DNA of 64,000 nt from positions 124,001 through 188,000 of the forward strand of contig NW_026516285.1 of assembly GCF_025602895.1 (NCBI RefSeq), read 5' to 3'. This DNA is from Polychytrium aggregatum. Lineage: Eukaryota > Chytridiomycota > Chytridiomycetes > Polychytriales. The position numbers were made by a program, and so were the translations under genes. The notes below the pieces were generated by a model. That model was given only the letters and a program-made list of their open reading frames with translations. It ran no database searches and had not been told where the DNA came from. Of this stretch, positions 1,821-58,584 are shown one piece after another (within the stretch, counting starts at the first letter, position 1; the number at the start of each line of letters is the position of its first letter).

Positions 1821-1848
1821 TGCACTTTATTCAGAAAAAAACGGGACA
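1821..1848 (+). repeat. Left terminal inverted repeat, copy 1
   Basis: It reads CACTTTATTCAG, then seven A and CGGGACA, preceded by TG where copy 2 has TA. It pairs imperfectly with 5388-5413. The inner block of A residues plus CGGGACA is the most conserved part across all copies in the window. Confidence 0.85.
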
Positions 1849-1920
1849 ATATAGCCGTTTCCATGAACATGTAGTATGTGCTGTGCTTGCGTCAAGCAAA
1901 GCCACAAGAAATAGATCAGA
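1821..1920 (-). ncRNA. Candidate Fanzor guide RNA (fRNA/omega RNA) scaffold, copy 1
   Basis: This is the stretch between the Fanzor stop codon and the element end, read on the minus strand. In the TnpB/Fanzor family the guide scaffold lies at the 3' end of the nuclease gene and runs to the transposon terminus, with the guide immediately outside. The segment contains a perfect 6-bp stem with a 3-base loop (1884-1898, TGCTTG/CAAGCA). It is nearly identical in copies 2 and 3, although copy 3 has diverged strongly at its other end. The location follows family knowledge and the conservation is seen directly; transcription is not shown. Confidence 0.5.
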
Positions 1921-4287
1921 TCACTTTGGCAGCCTCCGAGTGAAGACCGCCGGTCGCTCTCCGGTCTCCACAATCGACTTGCACACTGTGATCATGTTGC
2001 GCGCCGCATTGACGTCGCGATTCCACACTGTCCGGCAGCTGGGATTCTTGCAGCTCCTGACAAAGTGGGAATTCGCAACACTGGGCGCATCGAGTCCTTC
2101 CAACCGAACTGGCTCCAGGCACTTGGAGCACACTTGCGAGGTGTTGAACTCGTTCGTCGAGGCCACCTTGACGCTTCCATGATGGTGATTGGGACGGCGT
2201 CGGTGGTGCTCGAACTGCTCAAAGTACCGAGCAAACCGCTGCCTCCGAGGGCTGGATGCATAGCCCTTGCCCTGTCGCCATGACGCATTGCCAAAGGCGA
2301 TCACCACATCGGTCCGTATCGGGACGTGCTTCAGGACGGCCTTGCACATCTTGTCGACGGCCACTTGGCGTCTCTTGTGGGCTGTGAATCGATGGTGACG
2401 GGTCTTCTTGCCAAGGTGGAAGTCGAGCTACACTCGCAGCTCCGGTCGCAGGACATGGGTGAGATGGATCTTGAAGGCCTCCGAGGACTGCACCTTGGGC
2501 GAGGGAGTGGTCGACATCCAGGTCTCGATATCGAGTCGATACTTCATGGTGTTGTGCCACTTGGTGTTGGACTTGTGGCCACACATGTGCTGGTAGTGGC
2601 CATTGGAGAATGAGACCACCTCGTCTTGGTGGCCCGGTGCTTGGATGACCGCCGTGAAGATGGAGCCGACTCCAGGATCGATGCCAATCCAAGTGGTCTT
2701 GTCGGGGTCTGGGTCGCCGATGTGGGCCTGGATACGCTGCTCGGCAGTCGGAGGAGGCTCGATGGTCTCGGTGTGATCGGTTCGAGGCAGAAACTTGACG
2801 AGGCCGATGGTGCATCCAATGCCATCGGTGCTGATCTCGTAGTTGAACAGCTTCTTGTTCACGTCCCGCTCTTGGAAGAGGGAACTACGCAGCTTGAAGC
2901 AACTGCGCCAGAGACGATCCTGGTTGTTGACACCGTCCTCGCCTTCATCCTTGAGCATGTCCCTGGTGAGTCCAAGGCGCTTCTTTGGACCCAGGAGTTC
3001 CCAGAGAGTGACCGTGTCAATCTTGACATACTTGGCCGTGGCAGTGCATAGAGGAACCATCGTGCACACGGCCGGAGGAGTGTCAAGAGCGAGCTGCTTG
3101 AGGGCCCAGTTGAGCCTGGATTCCAGCTTGTTGATCTTGGCCTTGGTGGTGCCGAGCTCAGACTTGGCCGTGGTGAACCTCTTGTCGTCGGAGGGAATGC
3201 CTTGGGTAGTGAGGCTGTCCAGCTTGGCCTGGCGCTGCAGCTCGGTGATTCGGAGGGCGGGCATGTCGCAGTCGATCCACTTGTGGACATTGTCGACCAT
3301 CTTGTCTCGGGCGAGGATTCCCACATGGTGTGAGAGGCGATGGAGGGCCCGGAAGCGGTCCTGGTCGTTGCTGTACCGAAACTCGTCCAGGACGTGGCCA
3401 AAGTCGGGATAGAGGAACTCGAGATCGGCCTTGGGTGGAGTCTGCCCTGGTTTCTCGAAGAGCTCGAGACAGGCCTCGATGGCTTCGTGCTTATGCTTGT
3501 TGGCTGGGAAGACGGCAGCGCAGAAGCGGCGAAGGAGTCGCCAGTAGGCCAGGTCGAGATGGGTGGTGCAGTTGGTGGCATAGGCATTGACAGCCAGTGT
3601 GAGAAGCTGACTGTGAGCACCATCAGGCAGACGAGGGGCCGGAGGCAGGTCTGCGTGCCGAGTGGTCTGGTAGTCGCGAAAGGAAGCGACCAGATGCTCG
3701 TTGTATTTCTTGGTGTCCCTGGCCGTCGAGAGGGCACCGGCCTGGACGATCTTGAAGCATTGGCGGATGAAAGCAGGGGTGGACTTGGAGATGACGGGGA
3801 CGGGAAGATCCTGCTCGATGCACCGGAGGATGTGCAGGTTGAGCAGCCTGGATGCCTCGAACTGGATCTGGGTCATGGCCTCGACGGTGGCCTGGATCTT
3901 GTCGCGGAGAGCGGGATTGAGACAACAGCCATCCATCGTCTGCTTGAAGCAGCTGAACTGAGGGGCGGATGACCTTCCATCCACGAGTGGGACGACAGAA
4001 CTCTTGAGGGGCCGGTATTTGGGACACTTGTTGGTGTTGCTTCGCTGATGATCGGTACCGTCGCACTTGGGACATCGCTTGACAGGACCAGATGAGGGAC
4101 CAGGCTCGGTGGGATCGACATCCATTGGATCTGCAGAAGCAGTGGTGGTGAGCGACGGAGCAACAGACGACCAAGCATGCGTGGGATCAGAATACGAACC
4201 AGAGACAGGCTCCGACTGTGACTTGGCTTTCTTGGGCCTGGGTGGCCGAGGCTGGCCATCACCGGTACCCTTGCGCTTCGGAGGCAT
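1921..4287 (-). pseudogene. Fanzor RNA-guided nuclease, full length with one in-frame TAG
   Basis: One continuous reading frame of 788 codons broken only by TAG at 2428-2430 (codon 620). The diverged copy at 57.2 kb has glutamine at the aligned position, so a CAG-to-TAG change is likely. The N-terminus is basic (P-P-K-R-K, R-P-K-K-A-K), consistent with nuclear localisation, and is followed by a CxxC...C zinc-knuckle-like segment (C-P-K-C-D-G-T-D-H). The C-terminal half holds the split RuvC nuclease: RuvC-I G-I-D-P-G (Asp about 537), the V-V-I-A-F-G-N-A strand (about 661-668), N-E-F-N-T-S-Q-V-C-S-K-C (about 712-723) with the second zinc pair C-K-N-P-S-C, and RuvC-III N-R-D-V-N-A-A-R-N (Asp about 758). 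The glutamate in N-E-F fits the relocated catalytic Glu reported for Fanzors (inference). A TATA-like box lies about 130 bp upstream. Length and motif order match Fanzor1-type proteins of fungi. Confidence 0.85.
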
Positions 4288-4416
4288 GGGGGCAAAGGAT
4301 GCTGGATGTCTGCCAGTGGTACTGGTCAGAGCAGAGACTTCTCTTTATCGTACAATAGCGCGATGATCCGATCAAGGCGAGATGAGGGAAGAAAGCAGCA
4401 GGACGAAGGTGTGGCA

Positions 4417-4422
4417 TTTATA
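4417..4422 (-). promoter_or_regulatory. TATA-like box upstream of Fanzor
   Basis: TATAAA on the minus strand, about 130 bp before the Fanzor start codon and inside the roughly 250-bp gap between the transposase stop and the Fanzor start. This suggests the nuclease gene has its own promoter rather than being read through from the transposase. Confidence 0.45.
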
Positions 4423-4538
4423 CCCGAGAGCAGGAACCCGTCGTTGCGGGCTGGTTGGGGAAGTGACCTGTTCAAAAATCGCCGAGAGGTTCAAGCCAGG
4501 GATGTGAACGTGAGAACGGCGGCTTGATCGGAGGGAAC

Positions 4539-5329
4539 TCAACCCCAGAAGCGCATCGCTCGCTCAATCAGCCGTGGGAAGACATCTGGAAGCACCCTCC
4601 GCACGACGGACTCAAACAGGGTCACCATCCCGACCCTGAACCCCTCGGACGCATTCAGCGCTGTTGTCTTCCTGTACCGATGCTTCACAATCCCAAAGAA
4701 GTTCTCGATGGGATTGAAGTCGGGTGAAGCAGGTGGGGTGAAGATCACTGACCATCCACGGCGCTCGATGCAGTCCAGGACAGCCATTGTCTTGTGCATG
4801 CTGACATTGTCCATCACAATCACAGAGTCGTCTGAGAAGCACCCCTCGGTGAGTATCCGTAGAGAGGGAAAATGGATTTCCTGATCCCTGTCTCGTCGAC
4901 AAAAACGAATCGTCGTGGGTCGATGGAGCGGACCTGGTCCCTGAACTGTGCCACTCGCTCATCCAGTCGCTTGGACTTGTAGAGGTGTGTTGCCCTCTTG
5001 TGTGAGAGACCTGCTCGGTGGATGGCAGTGTGGCAGAGTGAGAGTGATACTTTCCTCTGGAGGATGGACTCGAGCTTGCATCGCAACACAGGACCAGTCT
5101 GGAACGGGTCCTGTTCAATCAGGGTGCGGATGACTGGACATGCCTGCTCGAAGAAAGTGGATCTGCGAGCTGGGACCCGGGATGGGTCATCCAGCTTGCA
5201 TCCTCGGTGCCATCGATGGATGGTGCTCTTGGATACACTGAATATGGAGGCAACCTTACGCAGGCTATGGATGAGGGCGTAGCATCGCAATGCGGCGGTG
5301 CGAAAGTCGGATGTGTGGCGAATGGTCAT
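4539..5329 (-). pseudogene. Tc1/mariner DD34E transposase with internal deletion
   Basis: The N-terminal half (5329-4820) has a homeodomain-like helix-turn-helix segment (V-S-K-S-T-I-H-R-W-H) and the first catalytic aspartate in F-V-F-V-D-E-T-G. The C-terminal half lies in another frame (from about 4850 to 4539) and holds V-I-V-M-D-N, the second Asp, and S-P-D-F-N-P-I-E-N, the catalytic Glu. I count 34 residues between them, so this is a DD34E Tc1/IS630-type enzyme. Between the halves, right after G-Y-S-P, a stretch is missing. Copy 2 keeps part of it (P-L-R-Q-R-N-H and following), so copy 1 has an internal deletion that also shifts frame. The protein would cut and paste the element at TA; this copy cannot encode it intact. 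Confidence 0.88.
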
Positions 5330-5387
5330 GGCCAGCGCGCGATAACATTGGGTAACAGAATATTCGATGAATGGTCAAAAACCCGGG

Positions 5388-5413
5388 TGTCCCGTTTTTT
5401 ATTGGATTGCCTA
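5388..5413 (-). repeat. Right terminal inverted repeat, copy 1
   Basis: Reading inward on the minus strand: TAGGCAATCCAAT, a run of A, then CGGGACA. It is followed outward by TA, the expected Tc1/mariner target duplication. The same end is found at 48566-48591 in copy 2. Confidence 0.85.
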
Positions 5414-5492: not shown

Positions 5493-8400
5493 CTACAACG
5501 TCCCAAAGCACTCAGGTATCAGCCGGCGGATCTTTTGGATCCACTCGAGATCCTCGGCCGTGATTGCCACACTCAGACCCTGTCCGTCGATGGCCACACG
5601 GACATGGTGGTGGGTTTCAATCAGCGTCGTCGTAGAGCCATCGCGAACGACATGCACGCTCGACGACTCGCTGCCGTGCTGGAGGCACTGCTCGCAGGCG
5701 GCAACAAAGCGCTCGATGCCCGCCGAATTGGCCACCAGGATTGGGTGGTCCAGCAAGATGTCGCTGTGAGCGGCACCACCACCACCAGCACCAGCACCAC
5801 TACCACCACCGCCGCTGCTGCTGCTGCTGCTGGATGCTGGTGGATCGAGGCTGACAATCATCGTCTCGTTCGGGCCAAGCCGGAAGTGGCCCCGGACTGT
5901 CGAGAGGCTGTGCTGCCACGAGTTCGCCAGCCTAGGCGTGATTTCAGATGCTGACTGGCTCGGGGGTTGTTTGTATGCAAGATTAGATCATGCGCCGGGA
6001 GACGATATCCGCGACGAATCGCCAGCAAGACCACCGGTACGATGAGGATTGATGGAGCAGAGACATATTAGTCGCCAGACTGGTGAGAGAAGCCGAGATC
6101 ATCAGGCGACATATGGGAACGAGTGGGCTGAACGAATGGATTGGCGATGACAGTTCAAACGGCCGCCCGTCTGCCTTGTCCATTCTGTGGCAACATGTTG
6201 CAATCGATCATGCAGGCGCAGCGCTTACCTCCTCCGACAGGAGCGCCTTATACTTTTGTGCACCCAGAGGAAACTCCATGAGTTCGCCAAGAGTTTGGCT
6301 GAAGAGGCACCGAACCCGACCAGCCGACGGAGCAAGGCTCTTGGCCAGTATCGGATACAGATGTGGCAAGGACGGAAACAAGGCAATCTTGGGGCTTGTT
6401 TGTGAATCGAGCAGAGCTGCAATCTGCTGTAGCGTCAGCGACGTGTCGATCGGCAGCGACTGTATCTTCATCTTCAGCGGCATGAACGAGGTCAGTCGTG
6501 ACTGGTCCGTGAAGCTCGGATCTGAGTGTTTCCGAGAGTAGCAGGAGTCAGCACGCATGTGACAGCCAACGGCAAGTCGGCATCGGAGCGGATGAACACT
6601 GAAAGACAAGTCAAATGGCGGCACGCACACAAGGCACATCAGCCGTGGCTGCCTGAGGAGATGTACAGACCGGTCAAGATCAGCACCGAGTTGGGGTCTT
6701 GTCGGTAAGCCGCCACCAGCCCTCGAACCGACCCGGACAGCAACGACGCATGGTCGGTGAATATGATATAGGGCCCCTTCATTCGCAGGATCGATGCGGG
6801 GGTCGGATGCAAGTACAGCCGCTTGTGCTCGAGCAGTTCGCCGTGGGTAAGGGGCGTCGAGGCGCTATAGAGGTTTTCCTGCGACTCGGTCGATGCCCTT
6901 GTATGCGCCGCAGCCACGGCGTTGCAAAGAGTTCAGGGTGAGAATCGGAGGGTGGTCGTTCCGGTCGACTTTGTTCTCGGCTTGGCACTGGAAGACTTAC
7001 CACTCACCCAGGATATTGGCCATGTGGAGTGAGCGCTTGGCCACAGGCGAGACATAATGCATCGGAAACTGCGACATCCCAAGGGCCCGGAGGTGCTTCG
7101 AGATGATGTCCAGCAAGTCATAGAGATACCCACACGGGCCGATCGGCAGAATCACGTTGCCGCCACGATCGACGGCCATCGCTGAGTCCATGTGCAGTCG
7201 GACGCACGCCAGGCAAGCGAACAAAAGCATACGATCAGCAAGATGGCGAGACGTTCCGGCGCGGGAAGAGAGAGATAGAATACCTATACGCTCGCACAGG
7301 CTGTTGATTGACGCAATCGGGGAGACAGAGTGGTCGGCAGCGATAGAGCCGTGGAAAATCCAGATGCTGCAGTCGTTGAGTGCCTCGGTGTTGATTCTTG
7401 ACGAGTGCTGAGGCTGGCTGACCGACGAGACACCGACAATGCCGATCTAGCAAGGTCGATCCCATCGATCCAGAGCGCCATAGAGATGTTGGCCAAGCAA
7501 CGAAGGCATGGTTGGATCGCATGACATTGCCCGGGCCACTGCGGTGGATAGAATTTCGATACAAACGACAGCCCAAACCAGGGCTATGTTGTGGTGCCTT
7601 ACCTTGGTTGCGGAGGTGTCAAGAATCCAGTTGGTGCTGCCCAGGTTGAATCCAGAGCTGACGGGAACTGCCATCAAGTCGGATCCCAGGCGCTTCGAGG
7701 CCACAGTTCCCCAAGGAGACAGCGGTGACAGCATGTAAGTCGAATTGGGACGAATCTGCATGAGCGACAATCGGATCCAGTGGTCTTGATACCGAGACGG
7801 ACGCAGCTCTGTCGATACCACAGCCGAGTGTGCGCAACCGGCTTACCAGAATTTGGTTGTGGGAGACCCGTTGGATCTTGGCCATGCATGAGCGCAGCTC
7901 GTGCAGCGAAAACATGGGCTGAAGCTCGTATCCGATCTGGATGTACCCAACATCGCTGTGGCAGTTGAGAGCCAAGGCCGGTCAGGGCGGTTGGTTGGGT
8001 CAGAATCAGGCGGTGGGTCCAGCGCCCGGACACGCCGGGAAACCGAGGGGTGTTTGCCAGCGATACGTACTCGCCAAAGCTTGCAACCAGCTCTTCCAAG
8101 ACGATGCTGTTATCGATAGAGAGGAGATGCGTGAGCAGCCGCTGTCTCGATTGGATCCTCCATTTCGCCGCGACCGAGTTGTCCAGCGACGCCGGGGTTT
8201 CATGCGTCTGACCGATGGCGGGCCCGCTACCCAGATCTAGCTCCAGGATCGTGGAGGACGTGGAATGAGCGGCATGTCGGGCCTGTCGAGTATACCGACC
8301 TTCCAAGCTGTGCGGCTGCCTCGGAGGCCAAGATCTCTCCACGGAACGTTGTCCGCTCGGTGAGGTACGGGAGCCCAAGCCAGCTTGAGGAGTTGGTCAG

Positions 8401-33118: not shown

Positions 33119-33424
33119 ACGAGGAGCTCCAGAAAGAAATGGGACACCTTGGTTGTTGGTCATTGACCGAGTATTTTGTTACCGGATACCATCGCACGCT
33201 GGCCATGGCCATTCGCCAGTGTGTCCAAGAGCACCATTCACCGCTGGCACTCCGAGACCAGTGTGCAGGTCGATTGTGGAGACCGGCAGCGGCCCAATGT
33301 CTTCACCCGGAGGCTGCCAAAGTGATTTGATTTTTTCTTATGGCTTTGCTTGACGCAAGCACATCACATACTACATGTTCATGGAAGCGGGTGTGGTGTC
33401 CCGTTTTTTTTTCTGAATAGAGCG
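33119..33424 (+). mobile_element. Short non-autonomous derivative of the Fanzor/mariner element, copy 3
   Basis: About 300 bp with the family's ends in plus orientation. The left end has AGAAAGAAATGGGACACC, then the start of the transposase gene (M-A-I-R-Q, then V-S-K-S-T-I-H-R-W-H after a deletion). This joins directly to the last codons of Fanzor (I-V-E-T-G, then R-R-L-P-K and a stop, with a frame change) and the candidate guide RNA segment. The right terminal repeat ends AGAGCG before TA. It carries no complete gene, so it would need transposase, and for guide function a Fanzor, in trans. It is more diverged than copies 1 and 2, hence older. Confidence 0.85.
33318..33424 (+). ncRNA. Candidate guide RNA scaffold, copy 3
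   Basis: This equals the segment after the Fanzor stop in copies 1 and 2. The stretch from GGCTTTGCTTGACGC through TTCATGGAA has about 2 differences in 46 bases from copy 1, including an intact 6-bp hairpin (TGCTTG/CAAGCA). The opposite end of the same element has about 15 in 67. A guide would begin at about 33425. Confidence 0.42.
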
Positions 33425-47300: not shown

Positions 47301-47513
47301 GAGAAGCAGCCCCGATCCAAGCAGCCACGTTACGATGGCGACGATGACAGCCACGACGGTGACTATTCCAAGTATCAGTGGAGTACCGATGGTGCAGATG
47401 AGCCTGGCTCCGAGTGGGTGGCTCCTGGCGAACAGCTTAATGCAGACGACGTCAAGAAGCAGAATGCATTGTATGGCTATACACTTTATTCAGAAAAAAA
47501 CGGGACAATATAG
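44389..47513 (+). CDS. Kanadaptin (FHA-domain protein, SLC4A1AP family)
   Basis: Nuclear FHA-domain protein. Exons from splice signals: 44389-44671, 44829-44866, 44971-45013, 45120-45215, 45314-45811, 45980-46054, 46166-46291, then about 46467-46562, about 46652-46681, and the last from about 46917. The FHA part is Y-F-E-I-L-K-N-G-T-I-V, R-L-P-I-C-D-I-E-L-E-H-P, S-R-Y-H-A-I-I-Q-F and S-A-H-K-T-F-V-N-K. Then come M-V-R-F-G-Q-S-S-R, a double-stranded-RNA-binding-like segment, K-K-R-L-K-E-L-L-G, a coiled coil and an acidic C-terminus ending W-V-A-P-G-E-Q and A-L-Y-G-Y. Intron 4 uses a GC donor (GCAAGT) instead of GT. The exon 7/8 join is one base out of frame in my model and remains open. A transposon inserted at the stop codon adds 11-12 foreign codons (T-L-Y-S-E-K-N-G-T-I) before a TAG inside the element. 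Confidence 0.86.
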
Positions 47514-47579
47514 CCGTTTCCATGAACATGTAGTATGTGCTGTGCTTGCGTCAAGCAAAGCCACAAGAAATAAAACAGA
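47480..47579 (-). ncRNA. Candidate guide RNA scaffold, copy 2
   Basis: The region between the Fanzor stop codon and the element end, nearly base-identical to copy 1 with the 6-bp hairpin intact. A guide read through the left end would be antisense to the last kanadaptin codons. Confidence 0.5.
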
Positions 47580-47927
47580 TCACTTTGGCAGCCTCCGAGT
47601 GAAGACCGCCGGTCGCTCTCCGATCTCCACAATCGACCTGCATACTGTGATCATGTTGCGCGCCGCATTGACGTCGCGATTCCACACTGTCCGGCAGCTG
47701 GGATTCTTGCAGCTCCTGACAAAGTGGGAATTCGCAACACTGGGCGCATCGAGTCCTTCCAACCGAACTGGCTCCCGGCACTTGGAGCACACCTGCGAGG
47801 TGTTGAACTCGTTCGTCGAGACTACCTTGACGCTTCCATGATGGTGATTGGGACGGCGGCGGTGGTGCTCGAATTGCTCAAAGTACCGAGCAAACCGCTG
47901 CCTCCGAGGGCTGGATGCATAGCCCTT
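47580..47927 (-). pseudogene. Fanzor C-terminal fragment, copy 2
   Basis: Starts at K-G-Y-A-S-S-P-R and keeps N-E-F-N-T-S-Q-V-C-S-K-C, the second zinc pair and N-R-D-V-N-A-A-R-N, ending R-R-L-P-K with a stop. RuvC-I and the N-terminal two thirds are absent, so it cannot be an active nuclease. Against copy 1 there are only a few amino-acid differences. Confidence 0.9.
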
Positions 47928-48507
47928 AGTACATGCGATGCAGCACACCAGAGTGGTTGATGGCAAATGCAGCCGAGACAGACTTGTGTTTCATGTGATT
48001 GCGCTGGCGAAGCGGAGCACCCTTCGGTGAGTATCCGTAAAGAGGGAAAATGGATCTCCTGATCCCCGTCTCATCGACAAAAACGAATCACCGCGGGTCG
48101 ATGGAGCGGACCTGGTCCCTGAACTGTGCCACTCGCTCATCCAGTCGCTTGGACTTGTTGAGGTGTGTTGCTCTCTTGTGAGAGAGACCTGCTCGGTGGA
48201 TGGCAGTGTGGCAGAGTGAGAGTGATACTTTCCTCTGGAGGATGGACTCGAGCTTGCATCGCAACACAGGACCAGTCTGGAACGGGTCCTGTTCAATCAG
48301 GGTGCGAATGACTGGACATGCCTGCTCGAAGAAAGTGGATCTGCGAGCTGGGACCCGGGATGGGTCATCCAGCTTGCATCCTCGGTGCCATCGATGGATG
48401 GTGCTCTTGGATACACTGAATATGGAGGCGACCTTACGCAGGCTATGGATGAGGGCGTAGCATCGCAATGCGGCGGTGCGAAAGTCGGATGTGTGGCGAA
48501 TGGTCAT
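47928..48507 (-). pseudogene. Transposase N-terminal fragment, copy 2
   Basis: Encodes the helix-turn-helix region and the first half of the DDE domain through G-Y-S-P-K-G-A-P-L-R-Q-R-N, then about 25 further residues ending H-R-M-Y and a TAA made at the deletion junction. A premature stop also follows S-I-D-P-R (codon TGA where copy 1 has R-F-V-F-V-D-E), so the first catalytic Asp lies beyond it. The later residues fill part of the gap in copy 1. Confidence 0.88.
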
Positions 48508-48591
48508 GGCCAGCGCGCGATAACATTGGGTAACAAAATATTCGATGAATGGTCAAAAACCCGGGTGTCCCGTTTTTTATTGGATTGCCTA

Positions 48592-57065: not shown

Positions 57066-57085
57066 GGCAAGACTCTCCTTGACAA

Positions 57086-57129
57086 GATGTCTTCCCACGA
57101 CTGATTGAGCGAGCGATGCGTTTCTGGAT
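57086..57129 (+). pseudogene. Transposase C-terminal remnant, copy 4
   Basis: Encodes D-V-F-P-R-L-I-E-R-A-M-R-F-W, matching the last residues of the copy 1 transposase. In that copy a 250-bp spacer separates this from the Fanzor start; here Fanzor sequence follows within about 60 bp, so the spacer and the Fanzor 5' part are deleted. Confidence 0.85.
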
Positions 57130-57183
57130 CCGAATCAAGGACGCCACTGCGCAGTATCTCTGCCAGCCCAAAATGCGCTGGTT

Positions 57184-57970
57184 TTGAGGAGATTCTTTCT
57201 TCCCCAAGGGCAGAACCAGCCATCGTCGCTATTTTCTCGCACTGATGGCTCCCCGCAAGCGAAAGACACCACCCAGGCGACCAAGTGGATCCAGAGCACC
57301 CACAAGATCCTTGGTCTGCAGGAATGGATGAGCACCACACCGAGCCCCAAGAACCCTGGGTTGGCTTCCTTCTTGCGATATATTCGCCATGTGTTCGATG
57401 GAGACATGCTGGAGAAACAGCTGTACTTCAGCCTGACCCGGCGACGGCGATTCAAGCGACTGGATCTCCACAGCAAGCGACAGCGCACCGTCCACGAGAT
57501 GTGCAAGCAAGTCATCGACCAGGCACCAAGGGAGACCGAAGTGGTGATTGCCTTTGGGAATGCATCCTGGAAACAGGGGAAGGGATATGCATCCGTCCCA
57601 GGAGACTCAGGTTTGCCAAGCACTTTGAGCAGTTCCACCACCACCAGAGACGACCACCAAACCGATCCGTCTCCAAGATCCATGTGTGCTCGGTGAACGA
57701 GTTCAACACATCCCAGGTGTGCTCACATTGCCGGGAATTCAAGCGACTTGAGTCACCCGAGTATCTTGATATCGAGAAACCACACTTTGTCCGGAGCTGT
57801 GCAAGCTGCCATACGCTGTGGGATCGAGACATCAATGCAGCCAGGAACATGATCTCGGTATGCCAGTCGATCATCGCCACAGGAGATCGACCGGATGTAT
57901 TCAAGACCATGCTTCCCAAACCAACCAAAACCACTCGATTGCCAACGAAGACGGGAAACAATCACATGGC
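57184..57970 (+). pseudogene. Fanzor C-terminal fragment with frameshift, copy 4
   Basis: Starts upstream of E-W-M-S-T-T-P-S-P-K and runs through V-V-I-A-F-G-N-A-S-W in one frame. It then shifts frame near 57600 and continues H-V/K-H-F-E-Q-F, N-E-F-N-T-S-Q-V-C-S-H-C, a second zinc pair C-A-S-C, and D-R-D-I-N-A-A-R-N-M. RuvC-I is absent. The conserved phrases are those expected to be constrained in Fanzor nucleases. At the position of the TAG in copy 1 this copy has glutamine (L-E-K-Q-L-Y-F). No stop follows L-P-K; the frame runs on through the terminal repeat. Confidence 0.85.
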
Positions 57971-57971
57971 C

Positions 57972-58004
57972 TGCCCGCTGGGCCTACAAGTCAGTCAGCG
58001 GGCA
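57972..58004 (+). ncRNA. Strong hairpin at the Fanzor 3' end, copy 4 (candidate guide RNA scaffold)
   Basis: A perfect 9-bp stem, TGCCCGCTG (57972-57980) with CAGCGGGCA (57996-58004), encloses a 15-base loop. It lies about 50 bp before the element end, in the place where omega/fRNA scaffold stems are expected. The primary sequence differs from copies 1-3. Confidence 0.42.
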
Positions 58005-58025
58005 TCTGAAGCCAGAAAGGGGAAG

Positions 58026-58053
58026 TGTCCCGTTTCTTTCTGGATAGACTGTA
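58026..58053 (+). repeat. Right terminal repeat, copy 4
   Basis: Read on the minus strand it starts TACAGTCTATCCAG, then a purine run and ACGGGACA. The outer TACAGT is the classical Tc1/mariner end and the closest to consensus in this window. Confidence 0.8.
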
Positions 58054-58584
58054 AGTATCTCGCACTGTTCCTTGAGTATTTCGACAGTGGATGCCGGGTC
58101 GCCCATATTCTGGGCAGTCCACTTCGGGGTTGCCATCCCTCTTGGGATGGTCGATGGGAGGTGTTTGACTCCCTTGTGCAAAGTGTGTGTGTGCTGATGT
58201 GTGTGTGTGCTGATGTGTGTGTGTGCTGATGTGTGTGTGTGCTGATGTGTGTGTGTGCTGATGTGTGTGTGTGCTGATGTGTGTGTGTGCTGATGTGTGT
58301 GTGTGCTGATGTGTGTGTGTGCACAGTGTGTGTGTGTGACGGCGAGAGGCCTCTCGCCTTCCCTCGGGGGTCTCTCGCCAGAGATTGCTCTTCTCGCCGA
58401 CCGAGGTGGCTCCGAGAGCGCGCTTTTTCGTTCTCGCTCATTTTATTAACAAGAAATTTTTTCATAGTGTCGACGTAGCATGCGGCGATCCAGCGGCTGA
58501 GGCGATCGTATCAAGCAATGTGTATTCGGCCAGGAACATCCGCCAGTCTCACGAAAGTACATCAGCTGCGATCGCAAGCCCAGA
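58054..58584. other. Intergenic region with a GT-rich minisatellite
   Basis: About 530 bp between copy 4 and the ISWI stop codon. It contains an eight-copy 16-bp array (listed separately) and a GAGAGGCC/GGGTCTCTCGCC imperfect palindrome near 58343-58380. No gene. Confidence 0.6.
58193..58320. repeat. 16-bp minisatellite GCTGATGTGTGTGTGT, exactly 8 copies
   Basis: Eight head-to-tail perfect copies (starts 58193, 58209, 58225 and so on to 58305), flanked by GT dinucleotide runs. It is likely length-variable. Confidence 0.95.

Follow-up and report, generated by a model that had tools for sequence, protein, structure and literature searches.

Mariner elements with Fanzor1 genes, some of them encoding a transposase as well, have been known since 2013 (Bao and Jurka 2013, PMC3627910), and Fanzor activity, target-adjacent motifs (TAMs), and ghost elements have already been described (PMC10432273, PMC11423790). 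Here we analyze an element of this kind, which we call type A, in a window of 64,000 nucleotides from the chytrid Polychytrium aggregatum (RefSeq assembly GCF_025602895.1, 64.7 Mb in 418 contigs; contig NW_026516285.1, C401:124001-188000; G+C 57.7%). It is a Tc1/mariner element (IS630-type, DD34E) with a transposase and a Fanzor, and thus joins a known kind rather than presenting a new combination of genes. The motif that flanks its insertions sits where the TAM of a Fanzor must lie, and it seems to follow the Fanzor.

Among the described systems, Spu-1 of Spizellomyces punctatus is alike in holding a Fanzor1 (SpuFz1) in a TA-flanked element with terminal repeats and in having ghosts that keep the 3' end. 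The geometry is also the same, with a conserved motif before the 5' repeat: the CA found there agrees with the measured SpuFz1 TAM, CATA (PMC10432273). For Spu-1, Saito et al. 2023 report no transposase between the repeats, whereas some of the present copies hold an intact one; the two Fanzors are only remotely similar (profile E = 0.0015), and the predicted motif here is (W)TTA, W being A or T, as against CATA. The gene pair itself, a mariner-like transposase and a Fanzor1, is that of PGv-1 and PUl-1 (Bao and Jurka 2013), and in the PGv-1 set, as here, a shared transposase half is joined to differing 3' portions. That set consists of four single-copy, virus-linked elements, ~78% alike in the shared part, with a Fanzor in the 3' part of one and methyltransferase genes in others, whereas the present genome shows a Fanzor-for-Fanzor exchange at 95% identity and at high copy number. 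IS200/605 and IS607 elements with TnpB likewise combine a transposase with an RNA-guided nuclease, and their TAM coincides with the insertion site, but here a DDE transposase accompanies a eukaryotic Fanzor. TnpB serves IS200/605 as a gene drive in plasmids (PMC11870625). KolobokP (PMC9587614) is another eukaryotic DNA transposon with a site-cutting nuclease, a His-Me homing endonuclease, beside a DDD/E transposase, although that nuclease is a protein homing endonuclease and, unlike Fanzors, not RNA-guided. The biological role of Fanzors is stated to be unknown (Saito et al. 2023), and among the listed titles and abstract openings on Fanzors, their mariner and other transposon contexts, homing, target sites, and TnpB retention, we saw none that described a Fanzor-dependent insertion-site signature.

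Copies and Their Insertion Sites

Complete or partial copies of the type A element stand at well over one hundred genomic places. The genome-wide count with both ends, proposed in a first-pass annotation made from the window sequence alone, gave 178 exact matches to the 28-mer of the TA-flanked 5' end and 211 to that of the TA-flanked 3' end, as against 0 for the backward controls, which excludes chance; many regions are present twice in the assembly, and these numbers do not equal independent insertions. Read inward, the family ends are TA followed by CAGGCAATCCAATAAAAAACGGGACA on the transposase side and TA followed by CACTTTATTCAGAAAAAAACGGGACA on the Fanzor side. By hand count, the two agree in 19 of their 26 positions, and the inner 13-mer AAAAAACGGGACA is perfect. 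At 17 of the 20 distinct sites where both ends were found by exact inner cores, TA stands on both sides.

Complete copies exist that are 3738 bp long and encode a transposase of 310 amino acids (aa) and a Fanzor of 790 aa. Among 22 aligned elements longer than 3 kb, some of which are two copies of one site, a stop-free full Fanzor frame is found in 15, a stop-free 933-bp transposase frame in 8, and both in 7 (the alignment excludes L041, L043, and L045, and L027 was omitted from the rates). Across the best 57 of 1301 candidate Fanzor places, which were the ones scored, 49 have no internal stop. The pooled ratio of nonsynonymous to synonymous polymorphism (pN/pS) of the Fanzor is 0.33 in 21 copies, one deleted copy being omitted; in the underlying regional values, that for the middle of the Fanzor (1.86) was out of frame and discarded, and that for the N-terminal part includes two surplus bases at its end. 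A full-length Fanzor lies 227-355 bp downstream on the same strand at at least 43 of 128 transposase places, and a Fanzor match or a match to its TNB domain at at least 70 (two split rows dropped), in agreement with the earlier suggestion that the two genes move together. We rejected the reading of transposases without a Fanzor match as "solo" elements, as the Fanzor matches behind these pairing counts are lower bounds.

The insertion sites carry a strongly one-sided signature. On the gene strand, T precedes the 5' TA at 172 of the 178 type A ends, and at 58 of 60 distinct flanks obtained from 72 ends in fetched DNA; the base before that T is W at 50 of the 58 (background 0.434, P = 2e-11). 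Forty of these flanks were hand-picked, roughly in list order, from the first hundred listed places, whose 5' ends include only two that do not read TTA, both already in the flank set; the remaining four of the six non-T ends, among which the paired copy of L020 is expected, lie beyond the listed places. On the other side, 42 of 46 distinct 3' flanks end in TA and were counted, and the position outside that TA is T at 4 of the 42, compared with 12.8% of NTA in the window (5' side vs. 3' side, P = 5e-21). TTA is read at every one of the 17 sites that have TA at either end, and the three without a 3' TA read ATA, GTA, and ATA. An orientation-dependent motif of this type is hard to get from a symmetric transposase dimer acting on mariner target sites.

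A Sister Element with a Different Fanzor

The 5' module of the element, its end and transposase, is also joined to a second Fanzor with its own 3' end. In this sister element, type E (L047 and L048), the Fanzor is 854 or 850 aa long and 43% identical to that of type A. Over positions 1-1016, which cover the 5' end and the transposase, the mean identity is 0.948 between the types, as compared with 0.952 among type A copies and 0.974 between two type E copies; just past the transposase stop, the identity of A and E falls to 0.43-0.49, whereas that among type A copies remains at 0.88-0.97, and the 3' ends of the two types differ. Five residues differ without overlap between eight A and two E transposase proteins. 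The junction pattern specific to type E was found at 12 genome places, all free of mismatches although three were permitted. The pattern may stem from a single exchange or from continued homogenization of the 5' half.

Ten distinct type E sites have T in front of the 5' TA in five cases, A in two, C in two, and G in one, a T frequency that differs from that of type A (Fisher P = 0.0004; P = 0.014 with the first 24 A sites). This set initially comprised 13 places with ten distinct flanks, five of them with T; on revision, a ghost on C30/C79 with an A-like 3' end was removed and a place on C72 added, which again gave ten flanks and five Ts. Type E sequence or junction confirmed the places on C2, C63 (two), C24, C58, C174, and C68 and a ghost on C88/C101, while those on C157 and C72 were assigned by a TNB match only. 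Eight places were searched by predicted distance, and the end was found in two, one of them (C364) without TA; outside the ten sites also stand C96, C127, and C140, which share one flank with TGA before the end, and C5, at which no end was found. As the motif differs while the transposase is nearly the same in the two Fanzor contexts, the comparison provides moderate evidence that the Fanzor and not the transposase sets the signature, which it would do by bringing the element back solely where its TAM is present.

Identity of the Two Proteins

The assignment of the nuclease to the TnpB/Fanzor group, made in the first-pass annotation from its motifs, was upheld by profile searches. The C-terminal zinc-ribbon domain PF07282 (TNB) exceeds its cut-off of 26.3 bits both in the window fragment (40.6) and in copy L020 (36.3), and a profile built from five Fanzors of types A and E matches SpuFz1 with E = 0.0015 over the whole sequence and 0.0066 for the stretch 456-790, and GtFz1 with E = 0.16 only. 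The general motif D-X(125,275)-[TS]-[TS]-X-X-[C4]-X(5,50)-RD (PMC3627910) is found by eye as D540, T719 S720, C723/C726/C749/C754, and R760 D761, in an alignment whose numbers exceed those of the type A protein by 1. The catalytic residues of SpuFz1, D383, E541, and D606 (PMC10432273), align to D540, E716, and D761 in the same numbering. Two features set Fanzors apart from TnpB, DPG at RuvC-I and a glutamate placed six residues ahead of the zinc finger (PMC10711439), and both types carry GIDPG and E-FNTSQV-C, the rearranged glutamate of the Fanzor kind. The size of the proteins, their divergent N-terminal half, and the non-IS607 mariner context are those of Fanzor1. Single-sequence searches were not significant, with E = 0.52 for type A against SpuFz1 and no Fanzor matched by type E at E up to 1. 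The lineage is thus remote from the solved Fanzors.

Toward the N-terminus, the Fanzors bear knuckle-like CX2CX4HX7C motifs: that of L020 (type A) has one, at aa 75-91, and that of L047 (type E) has two, at aa 33-49 and 98-114. Elsewhere in the genome, a 343-aa TnpB-like frame (L049, C279:33500-35900) has DRG in place of DPG and a PF07282 score of 61 bits; tblastn did not match it to the Fanzor of type A, and it is perhaps a Fanzor2 or IS607-like. Opposed pairs of PF07282 frames (70.5 bits, 477 aa) lie ~5.3 kb apart with their C-termini outward (G000; C124:405504-410788 and C379:92828-98112). Scans of viral contigs and prokaryote genomes, seeded by a few short peptides, confirmed no relatives of the Fanzor, and a scan of viral contigs seeded likewise confirmed none of the transposase.

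The transposase had been called a DD34E mariner transposase, and this holds for the full copies: that of L020 matches DDE_3 with 82.4 bits (cut-off 28.6) and IS630 with 115.9 bits (cut-off 100), and the D34E spacing, counted by eye in the translation, is VMDN-34-NPIE. It does not hold for the window copy, which alone gives no DDE match in Pfam. The TA target-site duplication and the terminal inverted repeats are those of Tc1/mariner (IS630) elements, with the window copy as the exception for TA.

The Window Copy and Other Features

The two minus-strand genes stand in tandem between terminal inverted repeats, as had been described, in the gene-strand order 5' repeat, transposase, Fanzor, 3' repeat, and the same borders recur at further loci. 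The span given at first, 1821..5413, is right as to the element, while its exact borders shift to 1823-5412 (Table 1). The copy is dead. Its transposase stretch is 791 bp long vs. 933 bp in full copies, 142 bp shorter, and the frame stops after 169 aa, ahead of the second and third catalytic residues; the Fanzor frame has a single in-frame TAG at 2428-2430. The copy lacks a clean TA duplication. At 1800-1823 its 3' end is adjoined by CAGGCAA, the first seven bases of the family 5' end, and then TA, and the 3' end of its partner copy (L018) is adjoined in the same way. The second window copy cited in support of the boundaries does confirm both ends and is bordered by TA left and right, although this 1.1-kb ghost has neither gene complete. 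A tandem repeat with a 16-bp unit, GTGTGTGTGTGCTGAT, occupies 58183-58326.

Table 1. Coordinates of the type A element and related features in the window
Feature	Position	Strand	Remarks
Type A Fanzor-carrying Tc1/mariner element, inactive copy	1823..5412	-	Borders are the end of homology to other copies
5' terminal inverted repeat (transposase end)	5387..5412	-	First base of this copy deviates from the usual form, TA then CAGGCAATCCAATAAAAAACGGGACA
Transposase remnant (IS630/Tc1-mariner)	4539..5329	-	Lower border (approximate) set by comparison with L020
Fanzor gene	1921..4287	-	One in-frame TAG; 790 aa without stop in other copies
Predicted omega-RNA scaffold region (Fanzor stop to 3' end)	1823..1920	-	Low diversity among copies; weak folding; no consensus structure
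3' terminal inverted repeat (Fanzor end)	1823..1848	-	CACTTTATTCAGAAAAAAACGGGACA on + strand
Type A deletion derivative (ghost)	47482..48590	-	Both ends retained, TA on either side, 5' flank TTA
Older type A ghost, ~300 bp	33121..33424	+	3' end kept (87%), 5' end in part (79%)
Type E (sister) remnant	57085..58053	+	Final part of the transposase, C-terminal portion of the other Fanzor with the 3' end belonging to it; TA follows

The 3' Region and Turnover of Copies

Deletion derivatives retain the 3' end (the window ghost at 47482-48590, L025, L029, and that on C246). Nucleotide diversity among copies is 0.0075 in the last 38 bp and 0.018 in the preceding 100 bp, compared with 0.036 and 0.048 in the two halves of the Fanzor. 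Rfam at gathering scores gave no matches across the window.

Several sites are represented by copies in different states. One holds a 3.63-kb element on C398 (L028) and a ghost of ~310 bp with both ends on C246 (L090, C246:75300-76100), with an overlap of ~7 bp at the deletion junction of the ghost. At another, one of two contigs probably bears a ghost where the second bears a long element, since the 5' flank of the 1.1-kb ghost L025 (C9:63144-71144) recurs at C79:128136-131841 beside a transposase match, with a 3' end 3.6 kb off. An older ghost whose ends resemble those of type A (83-84%) has a type A element lodged in its 3' end at L017 (~6001-6299), on C30 as well as on C79. The window ghost and its partner on C124 differ by 7 mismatches in 2701 bp including the flanks.

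Paired copies of one site are mosaic for variants that are common in other copies, while their flanks, on near-identical contigs, differ little. L026 and L034 have few differences in the flanks but 155 differing positions inside the element, and at 100 of these both states are common in other copies; the within-element differences of other pairs are 40 (L020/L023), 29 (L017/L036), and 92 (window copy/L018). Linkage between variable sites was measured in 17 copies, each from a different site: r2 is 0.36 for pairs up to 20 bp apart and 0.09 for those 21-100 bp apart, and more than 80% of the pairs over 20 bp apart show all four combinations. Rampant conversion or templated repair would leave such a pattern, and mixing of a high-copy repeat in the assembly could do so too. 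We rejected strong claims from the mosaic allelic copies, as that mixing is a possible source.

Proposed Retention by the Fanzor and Its Alternatives

TnpB and Fanzor read a motif 5' of the target that matches their guide, and the guide comes from the DNA beside the 3' end of the element (PMC10432273, PMC10711439). Because the guide derives from the DNA adjoining the 3' end, an empty type A site, (W)TTA followed by the guide, would have the form of a Fanzor target. The observed steps, from gene content and spread through the motif and its asymmetry to the difference between A and E, would then be joined as follows. Transcription of the stretch that begins at the Fanzor stop and ends with the 3' end would yield an omega-RNA running on into the flanking host DNA, whereby the guide would be a copy of the insertion site. 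After excision, or on a homologue without the element, the empty site would read (W)TTA plus the guide sequence; the Fanzor would cut it, and homologous repair would copy the element back, while a filled site would be immune, the element parting motif from guide. Insertions without the 5' motif could not be restored and would be lost, making the nearly fixed T before the 5' TA a footprint of the Fanzor TAM and not of the transposase. We consider a Fanzor-bearing, high-copy mariner with TAM-gated retention of its insertions the best explanation overall and give it a probability of roughly 0.5. The fuller proposal, that the Fanzor of a eukaryotic cut-and-paste transposon is an RNA-guided retention and homing drive whose TAM filters the insertions that persist, and that a swap of the cassette of Fanzor and 3' end behind an almost unchanged transposase changes the insertion-site signature, we advance tentatively, as falling somewhat short of an even chance.

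Several observations weigh against retention by the Fanzor. The five Ts at the ten distinct type E sites themselves exceed the background (P = 0.005), and the transposase itself may therefore prefer TTA somewhat. The two types also differ in the 3' repeat and in the five transposase residues, which leaves the comparison imperfectly controlled. The low diversity near the 3' end is approached by blocks inside the genes (0.009-0.012 at 201-300, 601-700, and 1601-1700 of L020), folding of the 3' region is weak (z of -1.76, -1.94, -1.39, and -0.41 vs. shuffles), and a consensus RNA structure of the A and E 3' ends gave zero shared predicted pairs. Fanzor pN/pS is 0.33 in transposase-deleted and 0.30 in full copies, a comparison made uninformative by the strong reticulation of the copies. 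Empty alleles were absent for 19 sites among 41 matches (40 scored of 456 candidates): ten of the 19 sites stand at two places among the matches listed, and no match spans both flanks. The longest crossing, at L032, measures 14 bases, and the 3' flank of that copy is similar to the 5' end. Conversion of an empty site was accordingly not seen. Absence of empty alleles as proof of homing we rejected as well, for near-identical flanks on paired contigs make shared insertions expected. Finally, the guide RNA, the cleavage, the repair, and the loss of insertions without a TAM are steps that we infer from the genome sequence.

The Fanzor could also be a passenger, with (W)TTA being the target preference of the transposase complex and its asymmetry the result of unlike ends. 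TA is the classical mariner target, the two ends match at only 19 of 26 positions, and the sister with almost the same transposase is also enriched for T, so that we take this to be possible though doubtful: with nearly one transposase and 5' end, T stands at 58 of 60 distinct sites in one type and at 5 of 10 in the other, the base outside the 3' TA is near background (T at 4 of 42), and many Fanzor frames are intact and under constraint. The same flank data would be accounted for if the Fanzor acted in target choice, binding (W)TTA and bringing the transposase, and the motif were set at insertion and not by later loss. This appears unlikely, as the passages of the literature consulted describe no recruitment of a transposase by a Fanzor or TnpB, and a guide copied from the old site would, we infer, mismatch the new one. 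That the T is simply an extra base of the element's own 5' end would fit its near fixation in type A, but L020 and L033 have TA and an intact 5' end preceded by A or G (both without a 3' TA), and the sister shows A, C, G, and T at this position, making the explanation highly improbable.

If retention by the Fanzor is correct, the type A Fanzor is predicted to have a TAM close to 5'-WTTA-3' and that of type E a different or looser one. The genome offers the comparison in a convenient form, with two Fanzor cassettes behind an almost common 5' end and transposase and with many type A insertions, and it also supplies complete copies and ghosts that retain the presumed guide-RNA end. The letters of the flanking DNA suggest that the nuclease helps decide which insertions survive; if this is true, they would document, at the level of the genome, the part that a Fanzor plays for its transposon.

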